From Paracoccaceae bacterium (GTDB taxonomy: Bacteria > Pseudomonadota > Alphaproteobacteria > Rhodobacterales > Rhodobacteraceae), in the NCBI GenBank assembly GCA_021741245.1, contig JAIOYF010000004.1:62001-126000 (forward strand): 64,000 nucleotides of DNA, read 5' to 3'. A program made the position numbers and the translations under genes. This document shows, in pieces, positions 6,301 through 23,033 of this stretch (positions are counted from its first letter, which is position 1; each line of letters begins with the position of its first letter). The notes below the pieces were generated by a model, which was given only the letters and a program-made list of their open reading frames with translations, was not told the origin of the DNA and ran no database searches.

Positions 6301-6310
6301 CGGTATTGGC

Positions 6311-7724: not shown

Positions 7725-7774
7725 ATTTGTAAATTTTTAATAACGATATCAGTTACTTAAGATAAATCAGGAAA

Positions 7775-7801: not shown

Positions 7802-7824
7802 AGGGTCACTGGGGACAGGGGCGG

Positions 7825-8634
7825 TCAACCGTGGTTGAACAAACCGTCGGCAAGGGTCAGGTGACGCTCCAGATAGTCGTGGAAATGCACCACAACCCCG
7901 TCATCATCGGCCAAAACGACCGCCATCTGTGCGGGGCCCTCAAGGCGGGCTTGCGCGCCCGCTATTCCCGGCACATGGGGGCTGACGGAATAGTGGCTGC
8001 CCGCCAGTGTGGTCATCGGCAATCCGCGCCAGAAGCCAACCGTTGGCAAGTGAACATGCCCTGCGATCACCATACGAATATCGGCATGGCGGTTCAGCAG
8101 ATCGGCGAAGCCTTCTGCGTCTTCCAAGGCGATGGCGTCCACAGGCAGCGACAGCCGATTGGCGTGGTGATGCATCACTACGATCACGGGTTTATCATCT
8201 GCCTCATCCAACACGGCGGCCAGCCAATCGCGCCTCCCTTGGCACAGGCGCCCACCAACAAGACCCGGCTCTGAGGTGTCAAGCAAGATCACCCGATAGC
8301 CCCCGGCATCTATGACCTTTGACACCCGGCCCGCCGGATCATCATGCGCAGGCCCCCAGACCGACAGAAACGTGTCCCGGTCATCATGATTGCCCAAGGT
8401 GATGTGATAAGGCAGCTGAAGGGCGGCAAGGTGGCTTTGGAGCACCTCATAGGCCGCAGTCTGCCCCCGATCTGCCAGATCGCCAGCGATCAAGACGAAA
8501 TCGGCATTGGCATGGTCGCGGTTGATCGCCTCGATCCCCGCTGCAAGCCGCGCGCCCGTGTCCAGACCGTTGACGACGCTGCCTGCCGGGCCAAGGTGCA
8601 GATCCGACAGGACCACGAATTTCAGGCCGCTCAT
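7825..8634 (-). CDS. metallophosphoesterase (cyclic/glycerophospho-diesterase-like, GpdQ/CpdA group)
   Basis: 269 residues with the full calcineurin-like metal site in order: SDLHLG, GDLADRG, GNHDD, MHHHAN and GHVHLP. This arrangement is that of class III cyclic nucleotide phosphodiesterases and glycerophosphodiesterase GpdQ. Its ATG overlaps the preceding stop as ATGA, so it belongs to the phn transport operon. No phnP (cyclic ribose phosphate phosphodiesterase) is present in the window, so this enzyme could substitute for it, or it could hydrolyse diesters imported by the neighbouring Ugp system. Both are inferences. Confidence 0.8.
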   Translation of the reverse strand: MSGLKFVVLSDLHLGPAGSVVNGLDTGARLAAGIEAINRDHANADFVLIAGDLADRGQTAAYEVLQSHLAALQLPYHITLGNHDDRDTFLSVWGPAHDDPAGRVSKVIDAGGYRVILLDTSEPGLVGGRLCQGRRDWLAAVLDEADDKPVIVVMHHHANRLSLPVDAIALEDAEGFADLLNRHADIRMVIAGHVHLPTVGFWRGLPMTTLAGSHYSVSPHVPGIAGAQARLEGPAQMAVVLADDDGVVVHFHDYLERHLTLADGLFNHG

Positions 8635-9446
8635 TGCGCAAGGCCCAGAGAGCGGAGGTAATTGGCTGAGGGGATCACGCCAGCCTTGTCGCGCAACTCG
8701 ATGATCAGGCGCGGGTTTGCCGTGATGGCCCCAAGCGCCGCGAAAACCGACTCCCAGCGGATATTGCCATGACCCACCTGCCAGTGCCGGTCAGCATAGC
8801 CATCGGTGTCTTGCAGATGCACATGCCCCAACCGTTCGCCTGCGGCACGGATGTAGAAATCCACGGGCGGCGCGCCGGTTGATCCATGCGCGTAATTGGC
8901 GTGGCCCGTGTCTACCGACAACGCCAGTGCCTTCCAGCCAAGGGCCGCGCACAGCGTTGCGCGTTCGGCTGGGTCCTTGTCTTCGATGTTTTCCAGAACA
9001 AAGGTCACACCCATCCCATCTGCACGGGTCAGGGCGCCCTCCAGCGTGTCCCGCATTGCCTCTTGCATCCGCGCAGTATCCGAGGGGTAGAGGCCGCGAT
9101 GATTGTAACCCCAAGTGGTCAGGGGGGAGTGGATGACCACCATCGAAGCATCCAGCGCCGCGCAGACATCCAGCGCCTGATCCATCCGCTTGCGCACCAC
9201 GGCGCGCACATCGGGATCATAGCTGGCAAGCGAAAGGCCCCAGAACGGCCCGTGAATGCCAAGACGGCCTTCATGGCCATCCAGCAGGCGCTTGGCCTCT
9301 TGCGCGCGCGGGTGCCAATCGCCGTTCAGAACTTCGGCATCCACAAAGGATTGCAGTTCCAGATCGCGCGGCAGGGCGCGCAGCCAATCCGCATGGGCGG
9401 GCAGGTCTTCGATGGTCAGGGCAGCACCAAGAACAGGCAGGGACAT
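8631..9446 (-). CDS. sugar phosphate isomerase/epimerase-like TIM barrel protein
   Basis: 271 residues of the xylose-isomerase-like (AP endonuclease 2) barrel fold. Recognisable metal-site segments are LGIHGPFWG, MVVIHSPL, FVLENIEDKD, LSVDTGHANYAHG, LGHVHLQDTDG and LIIELRDK. The ATG at 9446 is chosen for its distance to GGAG; a GTG at 9455 is possible. It lies between the acetyltransferase and the metallophosphoesterase in one operon. Handling of a sugar phosphate or ribose intermediate of the phosphonate route is plausible. The reaction is unknown. Confidence 0.75.
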   Translation of the reverse strand: MSLPVLGAALTIEDLPAHADWLRALPRDLELQSFVDAEVLNGDWHPRAQEAKRLLDGHEGRLGIHGPFWGLSLASYDPDVRAVVRKRMDQALDVCAALDASMVVIHSPLTTWGYNHRGLYPSDTARMQEAMRDTLEGALTRADGMGVTFVLENIEDKDPAERATLCAALGWKALALSVDTGHANYAHGSTGAPPVDFYIRAAGERLGHVHLQDTDGYADRHWQVGHGNIRWESVFAALGAITANPRLIIELRDKAGVIPSANYLRSLGLAQ

Positions 9447-9467
9447 GATTGTCACAACTCCAAAGGG

Positions 9468-10076
9468 TTAGCGGTATTTGTTGATAAAGGCATCGATGGG
9501 CAGGGCGCGGATATCGGGCAATGCGGTCTTCAGCCGGGCATGATCCCAATCCCACCACGCGATCTGTTGCAGCGCCGTGGCCTGCGGTGGGGCAAAGCGC
9601 CATTTGAGGTGCCGGGCAGGCACGCCACCGACAATTTCATAGGGGGCAACATCCTTTGACACGACCGCCCCGGCGCCGATCACGGCCCCGGTGCCAACGG
9701 TGACCCCGGCAAGGATCGTCACCCCGTGACCGATCCAGACATCATGGCCGATGGTGACCCAGTGATCGCGGCGCCATTGGAAGAAATCGGCGTCATCCTC
9801 GCCCAAGCCAAATTGCGCGGCGCGATAGGTAAAGTGGTGCTGACTGGCCCGCCATGTTGCGTGGTTGCCGGGGTTGATGCGCACGCCTTCGGCGATGGAG
9901 CAGAACTTGCCGATGGTCGACCAGACCACATTGCCGCCCTTGACGATATAGGAGTAGTCGCCAAATTCGACCTCTCGCATCGTCACATGCGCCATGACTT
10001 CGGTCCATTTGCCAAGCGTGCAATCGACCAGCACGGCGGTTTCATGGATGTTCGGCGCTTCGGTCAGCCGTTTCAT
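9468..10076 (-). CDS. hexapeptide-repeat acetyltransferase of phosphonate operons (TIGR03308-like)
   Basis: 202 residues, a left-handed beta-helix acyltransferase with hexapeptide repeats ([21 protein letters not shown], then [13 protein letters not shown] and [19 protein letters not shown]) and the xenobiotic acetyltransferase ending [13 protein letters not shown]. This subfamily is repeatedly found next to C-P lyase genes and may acetylate aminophosphonates, as the unrelated PhnO does. The ATG at 10076 overlaps the phnE2 stop as ATGA. Confidence 0.82.
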
Positions 10077-10930
10077 CGTGCGCCCTCCCACGTGCCGATA
10101 AAGCGGCTGCGGATCTGGGCCGAGAGCCAGTCGATGATATAGACCATCGCGATGATCAAAAAGATGATCGACCATGCCTCATCCCAGCGATAGGCCCCGA
10201 TCCGGTCGGCCAGCAAAAACCCGATCCCGCCCGCGCCGACGATGCCCAGAATGGTTCCCGAGCGAACATTGGATTCGAAGTTGTACAGTGTGATCGACAA
10301 CAAGACAGGCCAGACCTGCGGCATCAGGCCAACCCGGATCGCCTGCACACGGCTGCCACCGCTGGCGACGACCCCTTCGATCGGTTTGGTCGAGGTGTTC
10401 TCGATCGCCTCGGCATAAAGCTTGGCCAGAACGCCGACCTCGCCCACGGCGATGGCCAGCACGCCGGGCAGGGGGCCAAGGCCAAAGGCCCGGATAAACA
10501 CCAAGGCAAGGATCAGCGTTTCCAGCGCACGGATCATGTCAAAACCGCGCCGCACGCCAAAGCGCAAAAAGGGCAGTCGGTTGATGTTCTTGGCCCCAAG
10601 GAACGACAGCGGAAAGGCAAAGATAGCCCCCAAGAGCGTGCCCAGAAAGGCCATCGACAGCGTCTCGCCCAAGCCCTTGGCGATATCGGCAATCTCATCC
10701 CATTCGGTCCAGACCTTGGGCGGGAACATAAAGCCCAAGACCCGGCCCAAACGCTCTGACCCGTTCCAGATGCGCAGGGGCGAGAAATCAAAGGCGTAAA
10801 GGCACCACGCCACCAACAACACAAACCCGGTCCAAAGAACCGCACGGCGCAGCCGCACCTCTGGGGCAGGGCGAAAGGCCAGCGGCATCTGGGCGCGATA
10901 GCGGGCAAGATCGTGGTCCGAAACGCTCAT
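10073..10930 (-). CDS. phnE: phosphonate ABC importer permease, second copy
   Basis: 285 residues. PhnE hallmark loop near [20 protein letters not shown] and the strongly conserved [18 protein letters not shown]-terminal span [18 protein letters not shown]. It overlaps the upstream phnE1 (ATGA) and the downstream acetyltransferase (ATGA). Two tandem PhnE proteins probably form a heterodimeric channel with PhnC, a common arrangement in Rhodobacterales. Confidence 0.9.
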
Positions 10931-11829
10931 GCCGTTTTCTCCATCCCGATAATGCGGTGGCGCAGCTTTTCCGACAGCCAGTCGATCACCATGACCGTCA
11001 CAAGGATGATCAGGAACAGGGCTGACAGGTCGGTATATTCCTGAAGCGAAATCGCGGTGCGCAGCTCTTGCCCCAATCCCCCCGCGCCGACATAGCCGAT
11101 GATCGAGGATGACCGGACATTGATCTCAAAGCGCAGGAGGGTGTAGCTGATGATATTGGGAATGACTTGCGGCAGCGCACCCCAGCGCATTTGATCGGCC
11201 CATGATCCGCCTGCCGATTTCACCCCCTCAACGGGCCGCATGTCGATGTTTTCATTGGCTTCGGAGTAAAGCTTGCCCAAGGATCCCATGGAATGGATCG
11301 CGATGGCCAGCACCCCGGCCATCGGCCCCACGCCAAAGGAAAACACGAAAATCAGCGCAAAGACCAATTCGGGCACGGTGCGCGAAATCTCCAGCACCCG
11401 ACGGGTCAGCCATAAGATCACGGGCGAGGGGGAAAGGTTGCGCGCGGCCGGGAAGGACAGGATCAACCCGCCAATCACCCCGAACACGGTCGCCAAAAAG
11501 CCGATCAGGACGGTTTCAAGCAAAAGCCATGCCCAGATCTTCCAGCGCCAGAACCATTCGGCAAAGTCCGACCCAAGGCTTTCTGCGCGCAGAACGGGCA
11601 GGGTCTTTTCCAGATATTCGCCCAAGCGCGGCAAACCTGCCGCCAGAACCCAAGCCTCGGCCCGCGAACCATCCGCCAGCGTCACCTGTGTCACGCGGAA
11701 AAACCCCGAAAGCTCTGCCGTGGCCCATGTCAGCGCTGCCAGCACCAGCGCCACGATCCAAAAGCTTAGGCGTTGCCGTCTGCGGTGCAGGGCAAAGTCA
11801 GGGTTGAAATCGGCAGTTGTATAGGCCAT
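10927..11829 (-). CDS. phnE: phosphonate ABC importer permease, first copy
   Basis: 300 residues from the ATG at 11829. A GTG at 11871 would lie inside the intercistronic stem-loop and is less likely. Conserved PhnE loop GSLGKLYSEANENIDMRPVEGV and NVRSSSIIGYVGAGGLGQEL. It follows phnD and overlaps phnE2 by four bases. The N-terminal periplasmic domain between spans 1 and 2 is longer than in PhnE2. Confidence 0.9.
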   Translation of the reverse strand: MAYTTADFNPDFALHRRRQRLSFWIVALVLAALTWATAELSGFFRVTQVTLADGSRAEAWVLAAGLPRLGEYLEKTLPVLRAESLGSDFAEWFWRWKIWAWLLLETVLIGFLATVFGVIGGLILSFPAARNLSPSPVILWLTRRVLEISRTVPELVFALIFVFSFGVGPMAGVLAIAIHSMGSLGKLYSEANENIDMRPVEGVKSAGGSWADQMRWGALPQVIPNIISYTLLRFEINVRSSSIIGYVGAGGLGQELRTAISLQEYTDLSALFLIILVTVMVIDWLSEKLRHRIIGMEKTA

Positions 11830-11846
11830 CTGGTCCCGCCAAGAAA

Positions 11847-11876
11847 AAGGGGCGGTGCTTTGCTGCACCACCCCTT
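11847..11876 (-). promoter_or_regulatory. intercistronic stem-loop between phnD and phnE1
   Basis: 12-base arms (AAGGGGCGGTGC and GCACCACCCCTT, one mismatch) around a six-base loop, between the phnD stop and the phnE1 start. Expected to protect phnD message and lower permease expression, as seen also at 6276-6300 and 44912-44933. Confidence 0.6.
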
Positions 11877-11887: not shown

Positions 11888-12790
11888 TCACGAACGGCGC
11901 TGCTTTTTCAGCCAGTCGCGCATGTCGATGATCCACTGATAGCGGTCGTGGTTGACCTCGACATAGCCTTTCTGGGTGGAGTTCTCGGCCCCCGACATTT
12001 CGGTAAAGGCGACCGGATCGGCGGTTGGCACGTTCATCACGGCGGCCTTCATCTCATCCATCAATCCCTGTGGCAGGTTCTTGCGGGCCGTGAAGGGGCC
12101 AGAGGTGATTTCGGGCGAGGTCCAGATCCAGCACACCTCGCCTGCGTTGATCATGCCCTTGGTGACCATCCGCTGCGGAATGCCGTTCTTTTCGTTGTTG
12201 ATATAGGTGGCTGCAGCATCGAACTGGCCGTTGACCACACCGGCCACGCCCGCCTCATGGCTGCCCGAAAACGGGATGGCACCGAAAAAGGTCGAGGGCT
12301 CATAGCCTTGCTGCACAAGGTTATAGAGCGGCACGGCATATCCGCTGGTGGAATCCGGGTCGGCAAAGGCAAGGGTCTTGCCCTTCAGATCGTCCACCGA
12401 TTTGTAACCACTGTCACAGCGCACCGCGATGATCGAGAAATACCCCGTGGAGTCGTCGTCCTGAATCGAGGTCAGCAGCGGCACCACATTGCCTTCGGAT
12501 GCCGTGTAGGCCGCCGCATAGGCCGATGAGCCAAGGAAAGCGAATTCGATCTGGTTGGCGGCAAGGGCCTGAATCACGCCATCATAGTTTCCGGCGGTGA
12601 AAATCTCGACATCCACGCCCAGTGTCTTTTCCAGATATTGCTCAAACGGGGTATAGCGCGCGATACGGTCGCCTTCATTCTCGCCCGACAAGATGCCAAA
12701 GCGCACGATTTTATAGTCACTCTTCCAATCCTGCGCAAAGGCAGGAAGGGCGGCAAGCGCGATCAGAGCCGTGGTTGCAAACAGACGCAT
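11888..12790 (-). CDS. phnD: phosphonate ABC importer periplasmic binding protein
   Basis: 300 residues with a Sec signal peptide (MRLFATTALIALAALPAFAQ). PhnD signatures are IVRFGILSGENEGDRIARYTPFEQYLEKTLG and the phosphonate-contact loop DPDSTSGYAVP. A GGGAG site precedes the ATG. It binds phosphonates or organophosphorus compounds in the periplasm and delivers them to the two PhnE permeases. Second gene after phnC. Confidence 0.9.
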   Translation of the reverse strand: MRLFATTALIALAALPAFAQDWKSDYKIVRFGILSGENEGDRIARYTPFEQYLEKTLGVDVEIFTAGNYDGVIQALAANQIEFAFLGSSAYAAAYTASEGNVVPLLTSIQDDDSTGYFSIIAVRCDSGYKSVDDLKGKTLAFADPDSTSGYAVPLYNLVQQGYEPSTFFGAIPFSGSHEAGVAGVVNGQFDAAATYINNEKNGIPQRMVTKGMINAGEVCWIWTSPEITSGPFTARKNLPQGLMDEMKAAVMNVPTADPVAFTEMSGAENSTQKGYVEVNHDRYQWIIDMRDWLKKQRRS

Positions 12791-12813
12791 GGGGAAACTC
12801 CCTTTGGTTGAGG

Positions 12814-13620
12814 TCACGCCGAAACCTTGATCCGCGCTGCGGTCGAGGTGACGGCTTCCGAAAATTCTTGCAGCCCTTCGCTGCCATAGATGTCGCGCAC
12901 GACATCGTCGGTCAGTTGGCGGGGCACGCCGTCGAAATAGACCCGGCCCGCGCGCATCGCGATGATCCGGTGGCAATAGGCCCGCGCGGTATCAAGGGTG
13001 TGAAGGTTGACCAGAACGGTCAGCCCATCCTCGCGGTTGATGGTCTTCAACGCCTCCATCACCCGCGTGGCATTGCCCGGATCAAGGCTGGCAATCGGCT
13101 CATCGGCCAACATGATGCGCGGCCGCTGCACCAAGGCGCGGGCAATGGCCACACGCTGTTGCTGCCCGCCCGAAAGGGTGCCCGCCTTTTGCAGGGCTTG
13201 CGGCAGCAGATCCAGCCGCTCCAAGGCACGCAGCGCCTCAGCCCGCTCCGTCTCGGAAAAGCGCATGGCCATGGACGACAAGAACCCATGGTCGGCCAAG
13301 CGGCCCACCAGAACGTTAGACAGAACATCCAGCCGCTCGACCAGATTGAACTGCTGAAAGATCATCGCGCAATCGCGCCGCCATTCACGCAAGGCGCGGC
13401 CCCGCAACCCCGTGATCTCGCGCCCGCCATAGGTGACCTTGCCCGCCGAAGGGTCGATCAGCCGGTTGATCAGCCGCAAAAGTGTGGACTTGCCCGCGCC
13501 GGACCGCCCGATGACCCCAACGAACTGGCCAGGGGCGATATCCAATGTCACACGGTCAACGGCCTTGGTTTCCCCAAAGCGCCGCGACAGATCGGAAAGG
13601 GTAAGAGTGCTTTGTTCCAT
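12814..13620 (-). CDS. phnC: phosphonate ABC importer ATP-binding protein
   Basis: 268 residues. Walker A GRSGAGKS, signature LSGGQQQR, Walker [14 protein letters not shown], and the PhnC-typical switch region [15 protein letters not shown]. First gene of the operon that continues through phnD, two phnE, the acetyltransferase, the TIM-barrel protein and the phosphoesterase. No strong Shine-Dalgarno is visible before the ATG at 13620. A PhnF-type palindrome lies 37 bases upstream. Confidence 0.9.
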
Positions 13621-13656
13621 GCCCGGCAGACTGGAGGGCTTGCGTAACCTGACCGC

Positions 13657-13670
13657 GTCATCCGAATGAA
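13657..13670. promoter_or_regulatory. candidate PhnF operator upstream of phnC
   Basis: GTCATCCGAATGAA, differing at two positions from the perfect palindrome at the phnF start (22217-22230). Positioned for control of phnC on the minus strand. Confidence 0.5.
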
Positions 13671-13769
13671 TTTTCCGTCTCAGCTTTGCGACGGATTTCG
13701 GCGTGACTTTCGTCAAGCCGCAACAAAACTGTCACCCAAAGGTAGTGCCATCGTCATTCCGGGGCGGTA

Positions 13770-13783: not shown

Positions 13784-13858
13784 TGATGTTGATAGGTCGC
13801 CCCTGAAGGGGACCAATGGGCCGCATTGGGCAGGCCCCTGCGGGATGGAGCACGCCAC

Positions 13859-15100
13859 ATGAACGCCATGAACCCAAACCCCGACGCAGTCATGATTGAC
13901 GGTGCGCGGGTCGTGCTTGGGGACCGCTTTGAACATGTCTCCTTGCGGATCGAAGGGGGCCTGATCACCGGGATTGAGACCGCCGCCGATGGGGCAACGC
14001 GCGTTGATGCGCGCGGCATGGTGCTTGCGCCTGCGATGATCGACATCCATGGCGATGCGTTTGAGCGCCAGTTGATGCCACGCCCCGGCGTCATGCTGCC
14101 GATGGAGGCGGCGCTGTTGGAAACAGATCGGCAACTGGCGGCGAATGGCATCGCCACAGCCTATCACGCCCTCACTCTCAGTTGGGAGCCGGGCTTGCGG
14201 TCGGTGCAAACCGGGTGGGAGATGTTCGAGGCCCTGACCCGCCTTGCCCCGCGCCTGACAGTCGAAAACCGTCTGCAACTGCGGTGGGAGACGTTTTGCT
14301 TTGAGGCGCTGCCGCTGATCGAGGCGTCTTTGGCAGGCCCCCTGATGCCGTCGATTGCGTTCAATGACCACACCTCCATGGCTGTGCTGCATCCGGGCAC
14401 GCCCCTGCAATCGCGGCCCTTTGATCATGATCCGGCTTTTCCCGTGGTGGATATGGACAGCGCGGCCTTTGCCGAAAAAATGGACGCAAGGGCCAAACGG
14501 TCGCATATGAGCGCAGGCGCGTTTGTCGATCTGATGAAGGTGATGTGGTCACGCAGGGCCAACGTTCAGCCTGTGATCGCCGATGTTGCCGCCAAGGGAC
14601 GTGCCGCAGGTGCGCCGATGCTCAGCCATGATGACAGCCAGCCCGAAACGCGCAGCTTTTACCGCGATCACGGCGCGCGGATATCGGAGTTTCCGATGAA
14701 CCTGCCCACGGCACAGGCGGCACGGGATGCGGGGGACTGGATCATCTTTGGCGCGCCCAATGCCGCGCGGGGGGGCAGTCATCTTGGCAGCCCCGGTGCG
14801 GCGGATATGATCCGGCTGGGGCTGTGCGATATTCTGGCCTCGGACTACTACTATCCGGCCATGCTTGCGGCGATTGCGCGGTTGCAGGCCGATGGTGTGG
14901 GCACGTTGCCCGATCTGTGGCGGCTGGTGGCTGACACCCCGGCCAAGGCGCTGAACCTGCACGATCGTGGGCGCATTGCACCGGGGATGCGGGCGGATCT
15001 TGTCTTGATCGATTGGCCCGAGGGCGGAACGCCCGCGCCGCGCGCCACATGGGTTGGGGGCAAGCCAGCCTATCGCGCCATGGCCCTTGGACAGGGATGA
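13859..15100 (+). CDS. phnM: PhnM-family amidohydrolase, first paralogue
   Basis: 413 residues with the amidohydrolase metal motif DIHGD, then PRPGVMLPMEAAL, SFNDHTS-like AFNDHTS, LSHDD, the PhnM loop FGAPNAARGGSHLG and DILASDYYYP. PhnM removes pyrophosphate from ribose-1-phosphonate 5-triphosphate. This copy stands apart from the main operon, divergent from phnC, and is paired with a methyltransferase gene. It is diverged from the copy at 15881-17050 over most of its length, so it may act on a different intermediate. Start at 13859 chosen from a GGAG at suitable spacing. Confidence 0.8.
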   Translation: MNAMNPNPDAVMIDGARVVLGDRFEHVSLRIEGGLITGIETAADGATRVDARGMVLAPAMIDIHGDAFERQLMPRPGVMLPMEAALLETDRQLAANGIATAYHALTLSWEPGLRSVQTGWEMFEALTRLAPRLTVENRLQLRWETFCFEALPLIEASLAGPLMPSIAFNDHTSMAVLHPGTPLQSRPFDHDPAFPVVDMDSAAFAEKMDARAKRSHMSAGAFVDLMKVMWSRRANVQPVIADVAAKGRAAGAPMLSHDDSQPETRSFYRDHGARISEFPMNLPTAQAARDAGDWIIFGAPNAARGGSHLGSPGAADMIRLGLCDILASDYYYPAMLAAIARLQADGVGTLPDLWRLVADTPAKALNLHDRGRIAPGMRADLVLIDWPEGGTPAPRATWVGGKPAYRAMALGQG

Positions 15101-15876
15101 TGCGCGAGGATGCCGAACGCTTTGACGGATTGGCCGAGGCTTACGCCGCCTTTCGTCCCGGCTATCCCGCGGCGGCCTTTCGCGACATATCGGCCAATGT
15201 GACCTCGCCTTTGCGGCGGGCGCTTGATCTGGGGGCGGGGCCGGGCAATTCCACCCTGTCGCTGCGCGAGGCCTTGGGGCCGGAATGGACCATCGCCGCA
15301 GTCGAGCCGGGGCGCGATATGCGCCGTGTGCTGGCGCGGCGTCTTGGGGGACAGAATGGCGTGATGATCCTTGACGCCTGCGTTGAGGCCTTGCCCCTGC
15401 CAACAGGTTTTGCATCGCTGGCAACGCTCTGCACCGCGTGGCATTGGGTGAACCCGATCCAAACGATGGCCGAGATGGCCCGCGTGATCGCCCCCGGTGG
15501 GGTGTTTGTGGTGCTGCGCAACGGACGCTTGCCCCATCCGGTGCTGGATGCCTTCACCGCCTATTTTGCAACGCTCAATCCGCAGGGCGAGGACCATGCC
15601 CGCCGTGAGGCCCGCAAACTGCCGGGACTGGATTTTCTGGCCGCCCAACCCGGCTTTGCCGATCCCAGTGCCGCGTCTTGGCCGTGGCAGAACGAGATGG
15701 AGTGTCAGGCGCTGATCGACCTGTGGCTAACCCGCGCCACCGCGTGGGAGGTGGTGCGCCGCGTGGGCCTGACCCGTGTCTTGGGCGACCTGCGCGCCCT
15801 GTGCGCCCAGCACATGCCAAAGGGCCAAGTGACCCTGCACTGGGAAACACAAGCGCAATGGGTGCGCCGGACCTGA
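15097..15876 (+). CDS. class I SAM-dependent methyltransferase
   Basis: 259 residues. Motif I is LDLGAGPGNSTL, followed by the acidic loop AAVEPGRDM and the methyltransferase-11-type segment TLCTAWHWVNP. The ATG overlaps the phnM1 stop as ATGA. Closest in style to small-molecule methyltransferases of the Tam/UbiE kind. A role in the phosphonate pathway is inferred only from translational coupling to phnM1 under a PhnF-type site. It ends five bases from the convergent phnM2 stop. Confidence 0.8.
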   Translation: MMREDAERFDGLAEAYAAFRPGYPAAAFRDISANVTSPLRRALDLGAGPGNSTLSLREALGPEWTIAAVEPGRDMRRVLARRLGGQNGVMILDACVEALPLPTGFASLATLCTAWHWVNPIQTMAEMARVIAPGGVFVVLRNGRLPHPVLDAFTAYFATLNPQGEDHARREARKLPGLDFLAAQPGFADPSAASWPWQNEMECQALIDLWLTRATAWEVVRRVGLTRVLGDLRALCAQHMPKGQVTLHWETQAQWVRRT

Positions 15877-15880: not shown

Positions 15881-17050
15881 TCAGGCCGCCGCTGACAAGA
15901 TCACCGATCCATCCGAAAAGATCTTGCGCCCGCCCCGGATGGTGGCGCGCACATGGCCGATCCCTGCATCATCGGCCACGATCAGATCGGCCCGCATTCC
16001 CGGCGCGATGCTGCCCCTGTCGGTCAACCCCAAGGCCCGCGCGGGGTTAGCCGACGCCAACCGCGCCGCCCCCGCCAAACCGCCCGGATCGGCCTTGGCC
16101 AATTCCAGCACGGCTGGCAAGATGGCCGAAGGGTGATAGTCCGAGGCAAGGATATCAAGCAATCCCGCCGCATGGGCCTGACGCGCCGACAGGTTGCCGG
16201 AATAGCTTTGCCCGCGCAGCGCATTCGGGGCCCCCATGGCGGTGGCAAGGCCGCGCGCCTGCGCCTCGGCGGCCGCTTCCAGTGTTACAGGGAATTCGCT
16301 GATATCTGCGCCAAGGCTTTGCATCAGCGCGACTTTTTCCACCGTGTCATCATCGTGGCTGGCCAGCCTGACGCCATGCGCATGGCACAGGCTGGTGATC
16401 GCGGCAATCGTGGCCATCAGATCGCCACCATCGGTTTTCTTGACCTCAATCCGGCGCTGCACTTCGGCGCGGGCCTCATCCTCGCTCAACTTGTTGTTCT
16501 TGGCCACGGTCTGGATATGCCGCTCCAGATCGCGATACTGCCCTTGGCCGGGGGTGTGATCGGTCAGCGAGACCAGATCGACAGTGCCTTCGCGGATCAA
16601 CTCTTCGACCACGGACAGGGCATCGGGAAAGGTGATTTCAAACCGCGCATGAACCCGGTGATCAATGTTCAACCGTGCACGCATCTCCTTTAACCCACGC
16701 AGCATCGCCTTGGTGTGGTCATAGCTGCGCATGTGGCCGTAGGCGCTGCCGGGGTGAAAGCTGACGGCGGCATAGGCGGTGGTGATGCCCGCGACGACCA
16801 GCCTGCGGTCCAGATCGCGCAGACCCAGTTCCATCGGCATGCGCACATTTGGGCGGGGTTCCACCTCACGCTCGACCATATCGCCATGCATATCCACAAA
16901 GCCGGGCATCAAGAGCAGGCCCTCGCCGTGCAGCGCCGCGCCCGGCACTGGATGATCGGCCACCTCGGCAATCAGGCCATTCTCAATCCTGACCGATCCA
17001 CGCGAAAGCACATGATCGGCCAAGACCACGCGGAAATCAGAGAGCCACAT
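15881..17050 (-). CDS. phnM: ribose 1-phosphonate 5-triphosphate diphosphatase, second PhnM paralogue
   Basis: 389 residues, about the length of E. coli PhnM. Signatures are GFVDMHGDMVEREVEPRPNV, the SLTDHTPGQGQ loop, LASHDDDT, ISEFPVT, MGAPNALRGQSYSGN and LDILASDYHPS. It overlaps phnL by 14 bases and is the last gene of the phnFGHIJKLM operon, making it the canonical PhnM of this cluster. Converts the triphosphate intermediate to the 5-phosphate plus pyrophosphate by family knowledge. Confidence 0.88.
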   Translation of the reverse strand: MWLSDFRVVLADHVLSRGSVRIENGLIAEVADHPVPGAALHGEGLLLMPGFVDMHGDMVEREVEPRPNVRMPMELGLRDLDRRLVVAGITTAYAAVSFHPGSAYGHMRSYDHTKAMLRGLKEMRARLNIDHRVHARFEITFPDALSVVEELIREGTVDLVSLTDHTPGQGQYRDLERHIQTVAKNNKLSEDEARAEVQRRIEVKKTDGGDLMATIAAITSLCHAHGVRLASHDDDTVEKVALMQSLGADISEFPVTLEAAAEAQARGLATAMGAPNALRGQSYSGNLSARQAHAAGLLDILASDYHPSAILPAVLELAKADPGGLAGAARLASANPARALGLTDRGSIAPGMRADLIVADDAGIGHVRATIRGGRKIFSDGSVILSAAA

Positions 17051-17759
17051 TTTCTACCTCTTTTGCCGTCAACAAAATGTTGCGGTCCACCATGGCCGCC
17101 ACATCGCCGGGGTGGTGAAACACCCCGATCATGGCGACACCTGCCGCCTTTAACTCGGCCAACCGCGCCACCAGTGCCGCCCGCGCACCTGCGTCAAGCG
17201 AGGCTGTGGGTTCGTCCAGCAGCAACAGGCGTGGCGGTTGGATCAGGGCGCGGGCAAGGTTTACCTTTTGCTGCTCGCCCCCTGAAAAGCTGGTGGGATA
17301 GGCCCGCCAAAGGTCACGCTTGACGCCAAAGGCGGACAACCAGCGCCGGGCCTCTTCCAGCGCGTCGATCTGGGCCACCCCGGCCTTGCGCAGCGGTTCG
17401 GCCACGATTTCTTCGGCGGGCACACGGGGGCGGGCGATCAGGAACTGGGTGACAAAGCCCATGTCACGCCGCCGCAGAACCGCGATATCCACATCGGCCG
17501 CGCGGGCAAGATCGATCCGCCCCGCGTCATGGGTGAACCAGACATGGCCCGCCTCGGGCAAATAACTGCGCCAGATGGTGCGCAGCAAGGTGGATTTGCC
17601 CACGCCATTGGGGCCTTTGAGCAGCAAAAACTCGCCCGCGTTCAGGGTAAAGGAAACCCCCTCGAACGCATGCAGGCTTTGGCCCAGATGGTGCATGCGA
17701 AAGCTTTTCGACAGGCCCTCAACGCGCAGCACTTGCGTCCCGGTGTCAGAGTTTGGCAT
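17037..17759 (-). CDS. phnL: C-P lyase accessory ABC-type protein PhnL
   Basis: 240 residues. ABC domain with Walker A GPNGVGKS, signature FSGGEQQK, Walker B LLLLDEPTASLD and the PhnL-specific FVTQFLIARPRVPAEEIV. The switch-like end reads IGVFHHPGDV. AGGAG precedes the ATG at 17759, which lies 14 bases inside phnK. In E. coli PhnL and PhnK bind the C-P lyase core rather than a membrane channel, acting in turnover of the complex. Confidence 0.88.
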   Translation of the reverse strand: MPNSDTGTQVLRVEGLSKSFRMHHLGQSLHAFEGVSFTLNAGEFLLLKGPNGVGKSTLLRTIWRSYLPEAGHVWFTHDAGRIDLARAADVDIAVLRRRDMGFVTQFLIARPRVPAEEIVAEPLRKAGVAQIDALEEARRWLSAFGVKRDLWRAYPTSFSGGEQQKVNLARALIQPPRLLLLDEPTASLDAGARAALVARLAELKAAGVAMIGVFHHPGDVAAMVDRNILLTAKEVENVAL

Positions 17760-18546
17760 GGACAAGCTCCTGCGTGTAGGGGTGTTGGGGGTCTTGGAAC
17801 ACCTGATCGACCAAGCCTTCCTCGACCACACGGCCATGGCGCATCACCATCACCCGGTCGGCCATGGTGCGGATCACGCCAAGATCATGGCTGACGATCA
17901 CCATGGTGATGGCGCGGTCCCGCTGCAGGCGTTTGAGGGTATCAAGCACCAAGGCCTGCACGCTGACATCCAACCCCGTTGTGGGTTCGTCCAACAAGAG
18001 CAGTGCCGGTTCCAGCGCAATCGCCTTGGCCAGTTGCACCCGCTGCTGCATCCCGCCCGACAACTGCCTTGGCGGGTCGTCCATGCGGGTCAGCGGGAAT
18101 TCGGATGCCTCCAGCGCGCCCTTGGCCTTGGCCCGCAGGGTGGCAAAACTGCGCTCCCCCGCGATCAACAAACGTTCGGCCACGTTGCCCGAGGAGGAAT
18201 GGCCCATCAACAGCCCAAGATGCGGGTTTTGATACACGATCCCGATCCGCCGCGCGCACAGCTGGCGGCGGGCGAAACGGTCAAGATCAAACAGATTGCC
18301 GGGCGTTTCGGGAAGGGCAAGGTGATAGGTGCCCGTATCGGGGGTATCTTCAAGGTTCATCATGCGCAAAAGCGTAGATTTGCCAGAGCCGCTTTCGCCG
18401 ACGATCCCCAGAACCTCTCCCGGCCAGACGGTGGCCGCCACATCCTCAAGTGCCACGACAGCGCCAAAGCGGCGGCTGATGCCCGACATCGTCAGCAAGG
18501 GCGCGCCCGTAACCAGTTGCGGGGCCAGTCGTTCCATCACGGTCAT
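17746..18546 (-). CDS. phnK: C-P lyase accessory ABC-type protein PhnK
   Basis: 266 residues with Walker A GESGSGKS, signature LSGGMQQR, Walker B LLLLDEPTTGLDVSVQ and the PhnK-typical IVYQNPHLGLLMGHSSSGNVAER. The ATG overlaps the phnJ stop as ATGA. PhnK docks on PhnJ in known complexes. It is intact although the PhnJ here lacks the cluster cysteines, which argues that the complex still assembles. Confidence 0.9.
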   Translation of the reverse strand: MTVMERLAPQLVTGAPLLTMSGISRRFGAVVALEDVAATVWPGEVLGIVGESGSGKSTLLRMMNLEDTPDTGTYHLALPETPGNLFDLDRFARRQLCARRIGIVYQNPHLGLLMGHSSSGNVAERLLIAGERSFATLRAKAKGALEASEFPLTRMDDPPRQLSGGMQQRVQLAKAIALEPALLLLDEPTTGLDVSVQALVLDTLKRLQRDRAITMVIVSHDLGVIRTMADRVMVMRHGRVVEEGLVDQVFQDPQHPYTQELVHAKL

Positions 18547-19457
18547 GGCCGGAGCTCCCCGTTTTCATACCACATCGGGCCTATCTTGGTGGCCTCACCT
18601 TCGGCCTGCCGGATCGCCTTGATGCCAAGGTTGCTGTCGGATGCCTCAAACACCGACCCGCCGCTGTCTTGCGGGATTTCGTTCATGAACACCCCCGACA
18701 GGCCCGAGCGGTGGCAGGTCAGGCCCGCGTGATCTTCGACCTGATAGGGCACGTCGGAAAACACCAAGGGTTCAACCCGTGTAAAGGGCGGCACGGCATA
18801 AAGCCGCTTTTCGCGCCCGGCAGACAGCAGAGTCAGGTGGTGGGCCATGTGCAGCTTGGGCACATCCCAGCGCGGGATGGGTGACGGCGTCATCACATGC
18901 CGCCCGTTCACAAGGCTGGGGTAGGCCGCGCCTTGCACGATGCGGCCAGATCGGACCATTTGTTCGTAAAGCACCAACCACAGCCGCCCGTAATCGGCAT
19001 CGGCATGCATCTGGCGCGCAATGCTCATATTGGGTTGCACCGGGCGCAAGGGTTCGGGGTTTGGCACTTGCAGAACCAACACCTGATCGTCGCGCAGGCG
19101 TTCCTCGGGGATGCGGTGGCGGCTTTGCAGAATTGTGGCCTCTAGCGTATCCCAAGTCTCCGCCGCGCCTGACACACGCGACAAGAACCGCCGGATGGAG
19201 GCTGCATTGACGCTGTCATCGGCGCCTTGGTCGATGACCTTGACGACGGACGCGGGCTTGATCAGCGTCAGCGTGACCTGAAGGCCCCCGGTGCCCCAGC
19301 CGCGCGCAATCGGCACCTCGCGGCTGGCATAGGGCATCTGGCAGCCGGGCACGGCAATGGCCTTGATGATCTTGCGCCGCATCTCACGCTTGGCCGAAGC
19401 ATCGAGAAACCCGTAAGACATCGCGGCCCATGGCCGGGTAAGCGTGGCAAGGGTCAT
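18543..19457 (-). CDS. phnJ: PhnJ homologue lacking the iron-sulfur and thiyl-radical cysteines
   Basis: 304 residues versus 281 in E. coli. Collinear with PhnJ throughout: MRRKIIKAIAVPG, GWGTGGLQVTLTLI, VIDQGADDSVNAASIRRF, QSRHRIPEE, VPNPEPLR, MTPSPIPRWD and GREKRLYAVPPFTRVE. In E. coli, C241, C244 and C266 hold the 4Fe-4S cluster that splits SAM, C272 carries the thiyl radical and G32 the glycyl radical (from memory of the literature). Here G38 is kept. Of the cysteines only C248 (first position) remains; the others read S251, A272 and G278. The C-terminal tail is longer (IKAIRQAEG to WYENGELRP). ATGA overlaps join it to phnI and phnK, and the frame is clean. Radical SAM chemistry looks impossible. 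Confidence 0.9.
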   Translation of the reverse strand: MTLATLTRPWAAMSYGFLDASAKREMRRKIIKAIAVPGCQMPYASREVPIARGWGTGGLQVTLTLIKPASVVKVIDQGADDSVNAASIRRFLSRVSGAAETWDTLEATILQSRHRIPEERLRDDQVLVLQVPNPEPLRPVQPNMSIARQMHADADYGRLWLVLYEQMVRSGRIVQGAAYPSLVNGRHVMTPSPIPRWDVPKLHMAHHLTLLSAGREKRLYAVPPFTRVEPLVFSDVPYQVEDHAGLTCHRSGLSGVFMNEIPQDSGGSVFEASDSNLGIKAIRQAEGEATKIGPMWYENGELRP

Positions 19458-20512
19458 GCGGGCACCTCTTCTGTGGCCGGTTGCGCGGCCTTTGCCCCGC
19501 GCAGGGCATCCAGCGACGATTGAAAGGTGACGTAATGGGGCAGCTTGAAATGGATGCAAAAGCCCGACGCCTCCACCGGTTCGGTGTGGTAAAGGACGAA
19601 CTCTTCTTCCACCGCTGATCCCTTTTCCGCACCCGGCGCGTTCAAATCCAGCGTGGCCCCGGCGATCACCTTGACCTCATTCCAACCAAAGGTTGCGCAA
19701 AAGCCAAGCTCCAACAGCCCCGATTTGCCCTTGGACGTGACCTCGGCCTGACTGACCTTGACCCGTCCTGCCGAGAAACTGGCCCCCGAGGGGTGGCGCA
19801 CCATCACTTCGGCCTCGGCCAATCGCAATTCGTTCACCGTGGGGTGGGCATTGCCATAGCCACGCATGGCGGCATAGCCAAGTGCCAGAACTCCGCCCGT
19901 ATCGGCGCGGGCCAGTGATTGCAGGGTATGCGCGCGCGCCGCCGGAAACAGCAGCGGCTCGCGCGTGACATCGGGAATGTCATCGGGGGCTATGGGCGCG
20001 CTGGGCCTGTCGGCCACCAGACCTTCGGCCTTTTGCCATGCGGCAAGGCTGGGCTGATGGGCCGGGGCTGGGTGGGCGGCGGGATCAACCGGGGGCGGGG
20101 TAAAGGGCGTGCCCTCTAGCACCTCGGTCGCAAGCAGGCGGTGGGCATAATCCAGCGTAGGCCCAAGGATTTGCCCGCCGGGAATATCCTTGAAGGCCGC
20201 CGAGATGCGGCGATGGGTGAACAACTCTTCCAAACGCACCGGGGCCGCGATGGCGATGCGCGGTTGTGTTGTCCGCCATGCGCGCAACAGCAAGACCGCC
20301 TCATAAAGATCGCCCCCCGACTGCGCGAGGGCAAGCGCAGCCAGATCCGGGTCGTAAAGCGAGGCCTCGCCCATCACCCGATCCACCAGCAAGGGCAGGG
20401 CATGGCGCAGACCTGCCACCCTATCGGCGGTGATCTGCCCCATTTCCTGCCGATACAGCCGTTCAGCCTGTTCTATGGCGCGCTCTCCGCCCCGCGTTGC
20501 AACATAGGCCAT
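19454..20512 (-). CDS. phnI: C-P lyase core subunit PhnI, diverged
   Basis: 352 residues. N-terminal half matches PhnI well: YVATRGGERAIEQAE, LVDRVMGEASL, RRISAAFKDIPGGQILGPTLDYAHRLL and GYAAMRGYGNAHP. The zinc-binding pair HFKLPH (H321, H326) is kept, matching H328/H333 of E. coli. The usual FGxxERKAMxMALVD block is replaced by FGWNEVKVIAGATLD. PhnI with G, H and L attaches the phosphonate to ribose triphosphate. Start ATG 20512 shares one base with the phnH stop; a TTG three bases upstream is unlikely. Confidence 0.88.
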   Translation of the reverse strand: MAYVATRGGERAIEQAERLYRQEMGQITADRVAGLRHALPLLVDRVMGEASLYDPDLAALALAQSGGDLYEAVLLLRAWRTTQPRIAIAAPVRLEELFTHRRISAAFKDIPGGQILGPTLDYAHRLLATEVLEGTPFTPPPVDPAAHPAPAHQPSLAAWQKAEGLVADRPSAPIAPDDIPDVTREPLLFPAARAHTLQSLARADTGGVLALGYAAMRGYGNAHPTVNELRLAEAEVMVRHPSGASFSAGRVKVSQAEVTSKGKSGLLELGFCATFGWNEVKVIAGATLDLNAPGAEKGSAVEEEFVLYHTEPVEASGFCIHFKLPHYVTFQSSLDALRGAKAAQPATEEVPA

Positions 20513-21045
20513 CAAAGCACCTTTACTGTGGTGGAGCGGGGCAGGCCCATGACGCGTCGCCCATCGACAAAGGCGATCTCGATCCCTTCGGGGTATCGGC
20601 AGCGGGCCGCGCGGGCGGCAAGGAAGCCGTCGGGCAGCCCGCCAATGCGCACATCGCAGGTGCCGTCAACGCCGGGGCCAGAAAGGCGCAAAGCCGGACC
20701 TTGCCCAAGTCGGGCAGGCAGCACCAAGGTTGCGCCCTGATCAGGGTAAAGTGCCGATCCGCCGGGCAGGGCCGTCAGAACCGCAAGCGCACGGTCGGCA
20801 GAAAGGCAAAAGGCGTGGTCAGCCAATGATGCCGAAACCAAGGTCGCCCCGGTTGTGGCCACAAGGCGCGCCAAGGCGGGATCATCCACCATGACCTTGC
20901 ATTCACGGTCCACGAGGGCAAGGATCAGATCAGACAGACCTTCGGGCAGATCATGGATGGTGCCGGGGCGGGCCATGGCCCACATCAGCGCCTCAAAGGT
21001 GGCCGTATCGCGCTGGTCTTCGACAGTTGGCAGGGGTGCTGACAT
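20512..21045 (-). CDS. phnH: C-P lyase core subunit PhnH
   Basis: 177 residues, close to the 194 of E. coli PhnH. Typical opening TFEALMWAMARPGTIHDLPEG and closing YPEGIEIAFVDGRRVMGLPRST. Structural subunit of the PhnGHIJ core. Translationally coupled to phnG (ATGA) and to phnI (TGATG). Confidence 0.88.
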   Translation of the reverse strand: MSAPLPTVEDQRDTATFEALMWAMARPGTIHDLPEGLSDLILALVDRECKVMVDDPALARLVATTGATLVSASLADHAFCLSADRALAVLTALPGGSALYPDQGATLVLPARLGQGPALRLSGPGVDGTCDVRIGGLPDGFLAARAARCRYPEGIEIAFVDGRRVMGLPRSTTVKVL

Positions 21046-21473
21046 CAGAATGTCTCCATCTCGACCCGCGTGGCCTCTATCTGGCGCAGGCGGGCCTCGT
21101 CTTCAGCGTGCTGGATGCTGGCCTCTTGCGCGATGAACTCCAGCACCGTCGCATGACCCTGCGCCCTTGCCGCATCCAGCACCGCCATCGCCATGGCGCG
21201 TTCCAGATCGCGGCCAGTGATCATGCCATAGCCCTCAACATCGCCCGCACGGAGATGCGCCTCGGCGACCAAGACCTCGCCAAGGAAAAAGTCGGTGCCC
21301 TGAACCGTGTCGCGCAGGGGCAGCATCACCAACCCCGTGCGCGAGGTGACCACCTCAATAGTGCCAAGCGTGGGCAAAACCGCCTCGGCCACGGCCTTGA
21401 TCCGCGCGGCGTCTGCGCGGGCCAGTATGGTCAACAGGGGGCCGTGGTTTTCGGAATGGCGTCGGTCAAACAT
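21045..21473 (-). CDS. phnG: C-P lyase core subunit PhnG
   Basis: 142 residues from the ATG at 21473, with AAGGGG upstream. Family features are the TGLVMLPLRDTVQGTDFFLGEVL strand region, AHLRAGDVEGYGMITGRDLERA and the C-terminal IEATRVEMETF (E. coli VNASRVDFFTM). Core subunit with PhnH, I and J. The start lies eight bases inside phnF. Confidence 0.88.
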   Translation of the reverse strand: MFDRRHSENHGPLLTILARADAARIKAVAEAVLPTLGTIEVVTSRTGLVMLPLRDTVQGTDFFLGEVLVAEAHLRAGDVEGYGMITGRDLERAMAMAVLDAARAQGHATVLEFIAQEASIQHAEDEARLRQIEATRVEMETF

Positions 21474-22221
21474 CGCTTGCCCCTTCGTCCAAGGTATCAA
21501 TGGTAAAGCGTACACGGTCGGCGGACCACACGGCCTCGGAATGGCCAATTACCCGGCCATCGGGGGTGACATCGGTTTTTGTCACCACCAAAACGGGCTG
21601 ATCAGGGTGCTGCATCAACAGCTTTGCCTCCTCCTGTTCGGGACGACGGGCAAAAATCTCGGTCCGTTTGCGGAAATAATCGCTGATGCCTTGGGCGCTA
21701 TAAACCTCGGTCACCGACAGCCCGCTTTGGCGTTGGGCGATCAGGTCGGGGAACAGATCTGCGCAATGCCATGACAGGCCAAGGTTCACCGCCACCCCAT
21801 CTGCCAGACCTCGGCGCAGCAGGCGATGGACCAAGGCCCCTTGTGCCAGCCCCATCGTCTTTGCCACACGGTCAGGTGCGGGCAGTGTTTCGGCCATCAG
21901 ATGCTCGCCCGATGGCGTCAGCCCCTGATCCAACAGGTTCTGGCGAAACCGTGTGCGACGCCCGATGGCATAACGGATCATCGGCGCACTTTCGACAAAG
22001 GTGCCGCGCCCCTGAACCACCCGCAACTTGCCCTCAATCGCAAGGGCTTGCATGGCACGCCGGACAGAATGACGGCCCGCCTCGAACCTGACGCAGAGTT
22101 CGGTTTCCGTGGGAAGCTGTGTGCCCGGCATCAACTGACCTTCGGCAATTTCGGCGGCGATGCCGTCGCGGATGATCTTCCAGTTTTCGCGCCCCACGAT
22201 GCGGCCTTTCGCCTGAGTCAT
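21466..22221 (-). CDS. phnF: GntR/HutC-family regulator of the phn operon
   Basis: 251 residues. N-terminal winged helix (IRDGIAAEIAEGQLMPGTQLPTETELCVRFEAGRHSVRRAMQALAIEGKLRVVQGRGTF) and a C-terminal UTRA ligand domain, as in PhnF of other phn operons. The ATG at 22221 is inside a perfect 14-base palindrome and has no visible Shine-Dalgarno, pointing to a leaderless or very short-leader message and direct autoregulation. Longer in-frame extension lacks a start with a ribosome site. Confidence 0.85.
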   Translation of the reverse strand: MTQAKGRIVGRENWKIIRDGIAAEIAEGQLMPGTQLPTETELCVRFEAGRHSVRRAMQALAIEGKLRVVQGRGTFVESAPMIRYAIGRRTRFRQNLLDQGLTPSGEHLMAETLPAPDRVAKTMGLAQGALVHRLLRRGLADGVAVNLGLSWHCADLFPDLIAQRQSGLSVTEVYSAQGISDYFRKRTEIFARRPEQEEAKLLMQHPDQPVLVVTKTDVTPDGRVIGHSEAVWSADRVRFTIDTLDEGASDV

Positions 22222-22230
22222 TCGAATGAC
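22217..22230. promoter_or_regulatory. PhnF operator overlapping the phnF start codon
   Basis: Perfect palindrome GTCATTCGAATGAC that contains the phnF ATG on the minus strand. Near copies at 13657 and 13770 lie before phnC and phnM1. The shared palindrome makes PhnF the likely ligand. Confidence 0.65.
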
Positions 22231-22288
22231 CTGACTATGGCGGGCGCACGCGACAACTTCGTGACTCCCACCCGAAACTTCCATGACG

Positions 22289-22654
22289 CTACTGCAACCG
22301 TTTGCGAAGGCGGTCGGTCAGCCATTCCATGCCAAGGGCAAGGGCGAAGATGGCCAGAATGATCGTGCTGGTATCGCGATACTGAAAGAGGTCAAAGGCG
22401 ACCTTGAGTTCCTCACCGATCCCGCCCGCACCCACCAGCCCAAGCACGACCGAAGAGCGCACAGCCTTTTCCAGCGCAAAGACGCTGGTGGTGATCAGGC
22501 TGGGCATGGCATCGGGCAAGATCGCCCCCAACAGCACGGAAAACCGACCCGCGCCAATGGCTTGCAGCGCCTCTTGCGGCTCTTTGTCTGCATCCTCGAA
22601 CGCCTCGGCGAAGAAGCGACCGCCAAAGCCGACCGTATCGACAAGGATCGTCAT
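22289..22654 (-). pseudogene. truncated PhnE-like permease (C-terminal half)
   Basis: An open frame of about 121 codons covers only the second half of a PhnE permease: the FFAEAFEDADKEPQEALQAIGAGR loop, then VRSSVVLGLVGAGGIGEEL and the last span ending EWLTDRL. The first three spans are absent, and the sequence further upstream has no PhnE similarity. It is not a copy of either intact phnE at 10073-11829, so it is the remnant of a third permease. It lies upstream of phnF in the same orientation. Confidence 0.75.
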
Positions 22655-23033
22655 CGTGGCTGTAACGGCACGCCGCCCGACGCCCCATCGATCAGCTTTG
22701 GCGACCCTGGAGCGGCTTGCGCCATTGAGGCAAAGATCACAACAAGGCCCAACCATCAGCACCAAGCCGATGTATGAAAGTCCGGCAATGCGGTGGGGCC
22801 GGTCTGGCTTGGACGGTATCGAGCAGATTCCGTTCGCAGTGCTTTATCTTCATCGCCCATCAAAACCGGGGTCAAACAGCCAGGTCCTTCGAAGGATGCG
22901 CCGGAGAAACTCTTGTTAAAATGCGATGATCGCTGTGTGACGCACTGCAAAGTGGCCCATCGTGTTGATGACATCCAAGACCAAAAGGGGCGGGCCTTGG
23001 ATGTCAATGTCGGGTGGACCCGTTGCCTTGGCC
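22655..23033. other. non-coding or degraded region
   Basis: About 380 bases with no convincing gene on either strand; possible short frames have no family resemblance or ribosome site. It holds the lost 5' part of the truncated phnE and a 10-base inverted repeat at 22970-23005. The left part may be decayed mobile or phn sequence, but no insertion-sequence ends were recognised. Confidence 0.5.
22970..23005 (-). terminator. inverted repeat after the sorbosone-dehydrogenase-like gene
   Basis: Perfect 10-base arms GACATCCAAG and CTTGGATGTC with a 16-base spacer, 29 bases beyond the minus-strand stop at 23034. No uridine run follows. Terminator or message-stabilising hairpin. Confidence 0.4.

Follow-up and report, generated by a model that had tools for sequence, protein, structure and literature searches.

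A phn operon in a 64,000-nt stretch of a Paracoccaceae genome (contig JAIOYF010000004.1, positions 62,001 to 126,000; hereafter the window) encodes a PhnJ-family protein (phnJ, 18543-19457, minus strand) that retains only one of the four cysteines expected for the iron-sulfur (Fe-S) cluster and thiyl radical of carbon-phosphorus (C-P) lyase. We use the term Cys-less for PhnJ proteins without counterparts of the Escherichia coli cysteines C244 and C272, whatever the state of the other two, and CCCC for those that hold all four. With a confidence that falls a little short of even, we read the Cys-less systems as PhnGHIJKLM complexes that would have lost the radical (Fe-S/thiyl) module and kept the zinc (Zn) site, and that would form 5-phosphoribosyl 1,2-cyclic phosphate (PRcP) in a radical-independent way. 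Judging from the sequences, such systems would act on phosphorus compounds of another kind, or else use a mechanism that is not yet known.

At 18543-19457 the plus strand contains stops, and the minus strand is an open frame of 304 amino acids. The protein matches Pfam PF06007 with 382.7 bits (cut-off 25) over residues 13-277, and its residues 13-276 align with E. coli PhnJ (PDB 4XB6) with few gaps. In this alignment, G32, C241, C244, C266 and C272 of E. coli correspond to G38, C248, S251, A272 and G278, and the codons of the motif positions were read directly in the DNA (minus strand): C248 at 18714-18716, S251 at 18705-18707, A272 at 18642-18644 and G278 at 18624-18626. C244 and C266 are cluster ligands in E. 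coli, and C272 is the proposed thiyl radical site of known PhnJ chemistry. The residue of the glycyl radical site, G32, is present as the residue G38 (19344-19346, minus strand). The PhnJ C-terminal motif CX2CX21CX5C, named in an excerpt of PMC4389238, carries both the Fe-S cluster and the thiyl residue; it is absent from the window protein because the counterparts of C244, C266 and C272 are S251, A272 and G278, and C248 is the sole remaining member of the four. As the entire chain holds only two cysteines (C39 and C248), it cannot by itself give three cluster ligands. In the predicted structure (mean predicted local distance difference test score, pLDDT, 71; weak at residues 45-54 and 132-158), the C-terminal domain is ordered, and residues 10-284 superpose on E. 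coli PhnJ in the fold match. The tail is longer than that of E. coli PhnJ, and W296, Y297 and G300 within it are invariant in 24/24 clade members. A first-pass annotation of this DNA had described a full-length PhnJ with C248, S251, A272 and G278 at the motif positions, a retained G38 and a longer tail, and the profile match, alignment and codons agree with it on each point.

Residue retention was compared between 80 Cys-less and 87 CCCC loci. These 167 loci give 163 distinct rows, L023 and L076 being one and the same Cys-less genome, and some genomes are counted double in the PhnI counts. C244 and C272 are lost in all 80 Cys-less loci, with S or T at the former; C266 is lost in 61/80, and C241 is kept in 79/80. 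The cysteine columns are themselves no test, because CCCC was the sorting criterion; the test is whether other columns hold. PhnJ residues G32, G47, G49, T50, R107, H108 (H114 of the window, 19116-19118, minus strand) and Q124 are kept in 80/80 Cys-less loci, and among the Cys-less loci with letters at these positions, PhnI H219 is kept in 73/73 and H328 and H333 in 72/72. According to excerpts of PMC9947105, PhnJ R107, H108, Q124 and loop 47-50 together with PhnI H328 and H333 touch PRcP or Zn in E. coli, H108 contacting the cyclic phosphate of PRcP, and in the open state PhnI H219 also coordinates the Zn. The same excerpts place the cluster site approximately 30 Å from the radical glycine and describe a second site that binds Zn and holds PRcP; PRcP was modelled there in a complex expressed without phosphonate, which the authors describe as possibly a side reaction. 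Most of the kept residues line the Zn site in E. coli; G32, the radical glycine, is situated elsewhere. Apart from the cysteine positions, every column with at least 95% constancy among CCCC proteins keeps its majority residue in the Cys-less proteins of the Planococcaceae. In the alphaproteobacterial (alpha) set, several near-constant PhnJ columns are changed (G206, for instance, is replaced by S in 96%), and the alpha-type PhnI changes otherwise near-invariant residues, such as K65A, E252Q, Y273F and M287A/G, in most members.

Cys-less PhnJ is under purifying selection. The median ratio of nonsynonymous to synonymous substitution rates (dN/dS) is 0.165 in the alpha set (152 usable of 253 pairs), 0.044 in the Cys-less Planococcaceae (16 usable of 153) and 0.053 in their CCCC relatives (7 usable of 36). 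Together with the conservation across the clade, the conserved partner genes and the Zn-site residues, these values support the first-pass proposal of a selected variant complex.

Within the host's family, 202 of 394 genomes contain PhnJ matches, and 24 of these, host included, hold the window type. The other 23 members are 76-88% identical to the window PhnJ, and the next best match is at 55%. All 24 keep the first cysteine and carry S/T, A/L/V/I and G/A at the second, third and fourth positions; an alignment across relatives, which the first-pass annotation had called for, thus yields a clade of cysteine-poor PhnJ with the same kind of replacements throughout. A second PhnJ copy is present in 21 of the 24 genomes (CCCC in 20; in the other, it is divided between two contig ends), and the Cys-less protein is the sole PhnJ match in the remaining three. 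The sample includes one further genome of the host's genus (G135), with a single PhnJ, which is CCCC. Both copies occur in 40 alphaproteobacterial genomes, again counting the host, with the second copy CCCC in 39 and split over contig ends in one. In a further set, the Cys-less form is the sole match in 12 of 32 genomes, some of which may lack a second copy only because drafts and metagenome-assembled genomes (MAGs) are included. The host itself has a CCCC phnJ on the same contig (C18, 258522-259337), about 177 kb off, and the existence of such a normal copy had been anticipated as a reason to regard the variant as dispensable. That copy does not explain the variant away, since elsewhere the Cys-less protein is the sole PhnJ of a genome.

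The wider scan covered one genome per species with the best 80 loci kept, and for plasmids 60 of 215 records, of which at most seven stretches were read. Among the matches listed, the window type also occurs in Hyphomicrobiales (Devosia, Rhizobium, Mesorhizobium, Phyllobacterium, Nitratireductor and one Hoeflea MAG), in Anaerolineae MAGs, in one Bacteroidetes MAG, and on Thermus thermophilus plasmids, including HB8 pVV8. PhnJ matches are found in 6/249 genomes of the Anaerolineae class searched (that of G416), and all six are Cys-less. The most extreme case seen is an Anaerolineae MAG (L089, match 10001-10894) in which all four cysteines are lost (D, T, I, I). On the Thermus plasmids HB8 pVV8 and pTthSNM1-1b (L143, L144), the phn transporter genes have a LacI-type regulator gene upstream of them, and the stretch contains no annotated phnF. 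Plasmid-borne Cys-less operons were also read in Haematobacter, Nitratireductor and Mesorhizobium (L145, L146, L147), with transposase genes near two of the three, which suggests horizontal spread of the operon.

The Cys-less state is also found in the Planococcaceae, the family of Solibacillus, where 47 of 200 genomes have PhnJ. Thirty of these loci were read first: C244 and C272 are missing from 21 (18 CTCM, 1 CTCL and 2 CTTM at the four positions) and nine are CCCC, as are two loci read later. Each of the 21 Cys-less genomes has one PhnJ match (two of these genomes are also in the set of 32). All 13 Cys-less operons read have one gene order (phnF, G, H, I, J, K, M, L, a PHP protein gene, phnD, C, E, E). 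Of seven CCCC operons from the same family, five have the same gene families (in one of them the PHP gene is at the end, with an extra gene), a sixth is without a phnF call, and the seventh is rearranged. Isolated Cys-less cases occur in an Anaerolineaceae genome (L128) and an Erysipelotrichaceae genome (L132); the four other matches in the family of the latter are CCCC.

Trees built without the PhnJ C-terminal domain join the alpha, Anaerolineae and Thermus sequences in one clade (support 89 and 99 in two trees), apart from the Planococcaceae set, and the starred branches force at least two changes. The approximately unbiased (AU) test on PhnJ does not reject a single Cys-less clade (p=0.197), and the result with PhnI is borderline (p=0.051). 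We favour two origins of Cys-less PhnJ on the basis of these trees, short of proof. The loss, which might have been thought a peculiarity of the Rhodobacterales, is more widely spread and seems to recur.

The partner genes accompany the Cys-less phnJ. In the stretches around Cys-less operons, some of which stop at contig ends, PhnI is found in 59/59, PhnK in 59/59, PhnL in 57/59 and PhnM in 53/59, and PhnP in none of the 59. With respect to genes that handle PRcP, the one Planococcaceae PHP protein tested has as its best NCBIfam match the PRcP diphosphodiesterase model NF041661 (298.7 bits, below the cut-off of 500), and the PHP gene is also present in L128 and, partly at a contig end, in L132. 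As a matched control for the alphaproteobacteria, we used CCCC loci from 24 genomes that also hold a Cys-less operon. phnN and a DUF1045 gene lie beside 21/24 and 17/24 of these normal operons but beside only 6/48 and 5/48 Cys-less operons. The picture depends on whether a normal copy is present: within approximately 10 kb on either side, where the contig allows, phnN occurs near the Cys-less operon in four of five alpha genomes without a normal phnJ (G074, G297, G400 and G408; G414 has phnN on another contig) versus one of 40 with both copies (G410), p=1.6e-4. These counts were assembled by hand, with G390 and G407 merged as one genome, and short contigs (G216, G139) can hide neighbours. G335, whose contig is 8.3 kb long and for which no phnN was found, was set aside; counted as a miss, it gives p=4e-4. 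A nearby phnN in the sole-copy genomes fits a product that still needs PRcP salvage.

PRcP-handling genes are thus kept by several lineages, which argues that the product may be unchanged and that the bond broken, or the way of breaking it, is what would differ. In the scheme that we propose, PhnI with PhnG, PhnH and PhnL would couple a phosphorus compound to the ribose of ATP, and PhnM would trim the triphosphate. At the Zn/His108 site PRcP would then be released without radical chemistry, a step to which the retained genes and residues point: the ribosyl 2-OH would attack the phosphorus and expel a group able to leave without a radical, such as an alkoxide, an amine or a stabilised carbanion. 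Suited substrates would be those whose leaving group is better than an alkyl anion, and it is possible, as the first-pass annotation had suggested, that the complex acts on another phosphorus-containing bond. The PRcP would enter normal salvage through PhnN and the DUF1045 protein, or through the PRcP diphosphodiesterase.

Several observations weigh against this scheme. G32 is kept in every Cys-less locus, and a purely hydrolytic enzyme would have no obvious need for a glycyl radical site. The Cys-less operons of the Planococcaceae have the same genes as those of their CCCC relatives, and so hold no pointer to a new substrate. In both-copy genomes, the PRcP enzymes could serve the normal copy alone, and the nearness of phnN means less in G400 because that genome has three phnN genes. 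A search of five non-alpha clade members (Anaerolineae, Bacteroidetes, other) gave no phnN, and none of the tested PRcP enzymes lies beside their operons; the PHP query likewise gave no match in L085-L089 or the Thermus loci. A sugar-type (CUT1/Ugp-like) importer looked at first like a substrate clue (12/59 Cys-less versus 0/54 CCCC stretches, p=3e-4), but was dropped after the matched control (10/48 versus 4/24, p=0.76). In addition, the C-terminal domain of the alpha set evolves faster than the rest of the protein: the median ratio of nonsynonymous to synonymous differences per site (pN/pS) for this domain is 0.362, compared with 0.323 in CCCC and 0.188 in Cys-less Planococcaceae.

According to the main rival, which we regard as doubtful but deserving of weight, true C-P bonds of alkylphosphonates are still cleaved by the Cys-less complex, without the known cluster. 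The radical could be made elsewhere and carried by C241 (with G32), or the bond could be broken heterolytically at the Zn site. The retention of C241 and G32 speaks for this rival, as do the Planococcaceae operons with their unchanged gene content, and PhnD and PhnE are near Cys-less alpha operons (35/48 and 36/48) much as they are near matched CCCC controls (19/24 and 20/24). However, L089 has Asp at C241, C272 (the thiyl of known PhnJ chemistry) is lost in all 80 loci, and no radical-SAM (S-adenosylmethionine) activase was noticed among conserved neighbours, many of which are unannotated and at which no model search for one was aimed. The specific form in which the C-P bond itself would be broken without Fe-S or SAM, with the PhnI/PhnJ Zn site (and C241) turning the ribosyl phosphonate into PRcP in another way, seems to us unlikely on the present sequences.

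Another reading assigns to the Cys-less complex the first half of the pathway only, with ribosyl transfer by PhnI and trimming by PhnM; the product would be passed to a normal PhnJ, stored or detoxified, and the Cys-less PhnJ would be structural. The 40 alphaproteobacterial genomes with both copies, the conserved PhnI Zn ligands and the frequency of PhnM are what one would expect from such a division of labour. This role is nevertheless disfavoured, and we think it quite improbable, because of the genomes in which the Cys-less form is the sole match (3/24 in the host's family, 12/32 in the further set, and the 21 Planococcaceae genomes; with drafts and MAGs among all of these, a second copy may be missed in some); PRcP-handling genes are moreover kept in the Planococcaceae and in four of the five readable sole-copy alpha genomes. 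That these are decaying C-P lyase paralogues under relaxed constraint, kept by chance, could be suspected from the truncated phnE remnant upstream of phnF in the window, the plasmid-borne relatives, and an alpha-set C-terminal domain that is less constrained than the whole protein. Selection makes decay very improbable: dN/dS is low in both sets, the Zn-site residues are identical in 80/80 loci, and the same two positions are lost in separate lineages. A base-calling or assembly error at codons 251, 272 and 278, against which the first-pass annotation had cautioned, is ruled out because numerous independent assemblies, spanning several phyla, agree on these replacements, and since a gap-poor alignment and the structural superposition run through the region, a C-terminal misalignment is hardly conceivable.

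Two candidates for a relocated cluster ligand were considered and rejected. A PhnI cysteine at E. coli position 326 is present in 53/55 alpha-type loci and in 5/58 CCCC loci, and is absent from two Thermus loci. Rhodobacterales and Devosia members commonly share PhnJ C39 (E. coli position 33), and the position is Tyr in Rhizobium, Anaerolineae and Thermus, with two exceptions (L079, Cys; L117, His). Judged by these distributions, neither residue is a general replacement for the lost cysteines. The PhnI cysteine, typical of the clade in the alpha type, stands two residues before the Zn ligand H328.

The remaining genes of the window operon are on the minus strand with phnJ. Upstream of phnJ are phnI (19454-20515; Zn ligands E. 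coli H219, H328 and H333 retained), phnH (20512-21045; PF05845, and TIGR03292 with 103.1 bits, above cut-off), phnG (21045-21548 by open reading frame (ORF) limits, the true start perhaps downstream; PF06754, and TIGR03293 with 88.4 bits, which just misses the cut-off of 89) and phnF, a GntR/UTRA regulator (21466-22284; TIGR02325, 181.7 bits, above cut-off). Downstream are phnK (17746-18546; best NCBIfam TIGR02323, 226.7 bits, below the cut-off of 302.85), phnL (17037-17837 by ORF limits; best NCBIfam TIGR02324, 231.8 bits, below the cut-off of 256.3) and phnM (15881-17050; NF011988 with 529.7 bits and TIGR02318 with 431 bits, both above cut-off). The transport genes are phnC (12814-13716; TIGR02315, 316.5 bits, above cut-off), phnD (11888-12976 by ORF limits, with the match starting at residue 67; TIGR03431, 282.2 bits, and PF12974), phnE1 (10927-11871) and phnE2 (10073-10930). 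Both phnE genes belong to permease family F01 and were named by position (the same in relatives, where phnE1 also follows phnD) and family grouping, not by profile. A hexapeptide-repeat transferase gene of the kind found in phn operons lies at 9468-10175 (TIGR03308, 280.7 bits, above cut-off). The operon had been called otherwise intact, which is right as far as phnFGHIJKLM and phnCDE1E2 are concerned; it lacks phnN and DUF1045, which adjoin the host's normal phnJ instead.

Some further features surround these genes. Immediately upstream of phnF is a 5'-truncated phnE-like permease remnant (22289-22765, minus strand), with approximately 31-34% identity to the C-terminal parts of phnE1 and phnE2 and no start part in the frames up to 23040. 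Within the cluster, on the opposite strand, are a second PhnM-like protein (13826-15100) and a SAM-dependent methyltransferase (15013-15876). Downstream of the transporter genes, at 3317-9455 on the minus strand, are a TIM-barrel protein (CbiR-like, 45 bits, below the model cut-off), a metallophosphoesterase (SpdA-like; 202 bits with a 2',3'-cyclic nucleotide phosphodiesterase model, below cut-off) and a Ugp-like importer. The Thermus plasmids carry genes of types similar to this importer and phosphoesterase. Against the matched control, the phosphoesterase (7/48 Cys-less versus 0/24, p=0.087), the TIM-barrel protein (14/48 versus 2/24, p=0.07) and a close second phnM (13/48 versus 2/24, p=0.074) are unproven trends; the uncontrolled p values were 0.003, 0.0005 and 0.002, respectively. 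A gene-by-gene reading of two Rhizobium-type loci (L083, L084) places a sugar-type importer directly upstream of phnG, in L084 with a pfkB kinase as well, and L078 and L081 have the same arrangement by weaker matches; there is no PhnD or PhnE match within these stretches.

No description of Cys-less PhnJ came up in listings and passages from an open-licence library, subscription literature being outside that search. The Cys-less complexes amount to a natural subtraction experiment, with the cluster motif gone and the Zn-site residues kept, that can separate the role of the Zn site from that of the radical. Were the C-P bond cleaved without a radical, this would be a second, perhaps oxygen-tolerant, C-P lyase chemistry, at which more than one lineage would have arrived through the loss of C244 and C272. 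There is also a practical consequence. Counts of phnJ are used as a marker for C-P lyase and for methane formation from phosphonate (excerpts of PMC6852614 and PMC8774927), yet the window's Cys-less gene matches PF06007 strongly and public records label Cys-less proteins as C-P lyase PhnJ (those of three alphaproteobacterial plasmid and two Thermus records). In the host's family, the Cys-less form is in 24 of the 202 PhnJ-positive genomes, and is the sole one found in three.

Among known systems, Pseudomonas stutzeri is like the host in having a second C-P lyase operon in its genome. White and Metcalf (2004) reportedly described two such operons in one P. stutzeri genome, in a study whose title names phosphonates, phosphite and hypophosphite. 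The host's own normal operon (C18, around 258522) has the same gene families as the window operon; its PhnJ, unlike that of the window, is CCCC, with approximately 47% identity to the window protein and with phnN and DUF1045 alongside. The Cys-less PhnJ of the Planococcaceae (G424, G545, G540 and others) resembles the window's in having lost C244 and C272 and kept C241 and the Zn-site residues, but differs in that C266 is kept in 19/21, the gene is single-copy, and the canonical near-invariant positions are unchanged, as they are in PhnI where compared. Relative to E. coli PhnJ in the PhnGHIJKL complex (PDB 4XB6 and 7Z15-7Z19), which has the full CX2CX21CX5C motif, the window protein has C244, C266 and C272 replaced, and its clade has a longer, clade-specific PhnJ tail and a PhnI in which near-invariant residues are changed.

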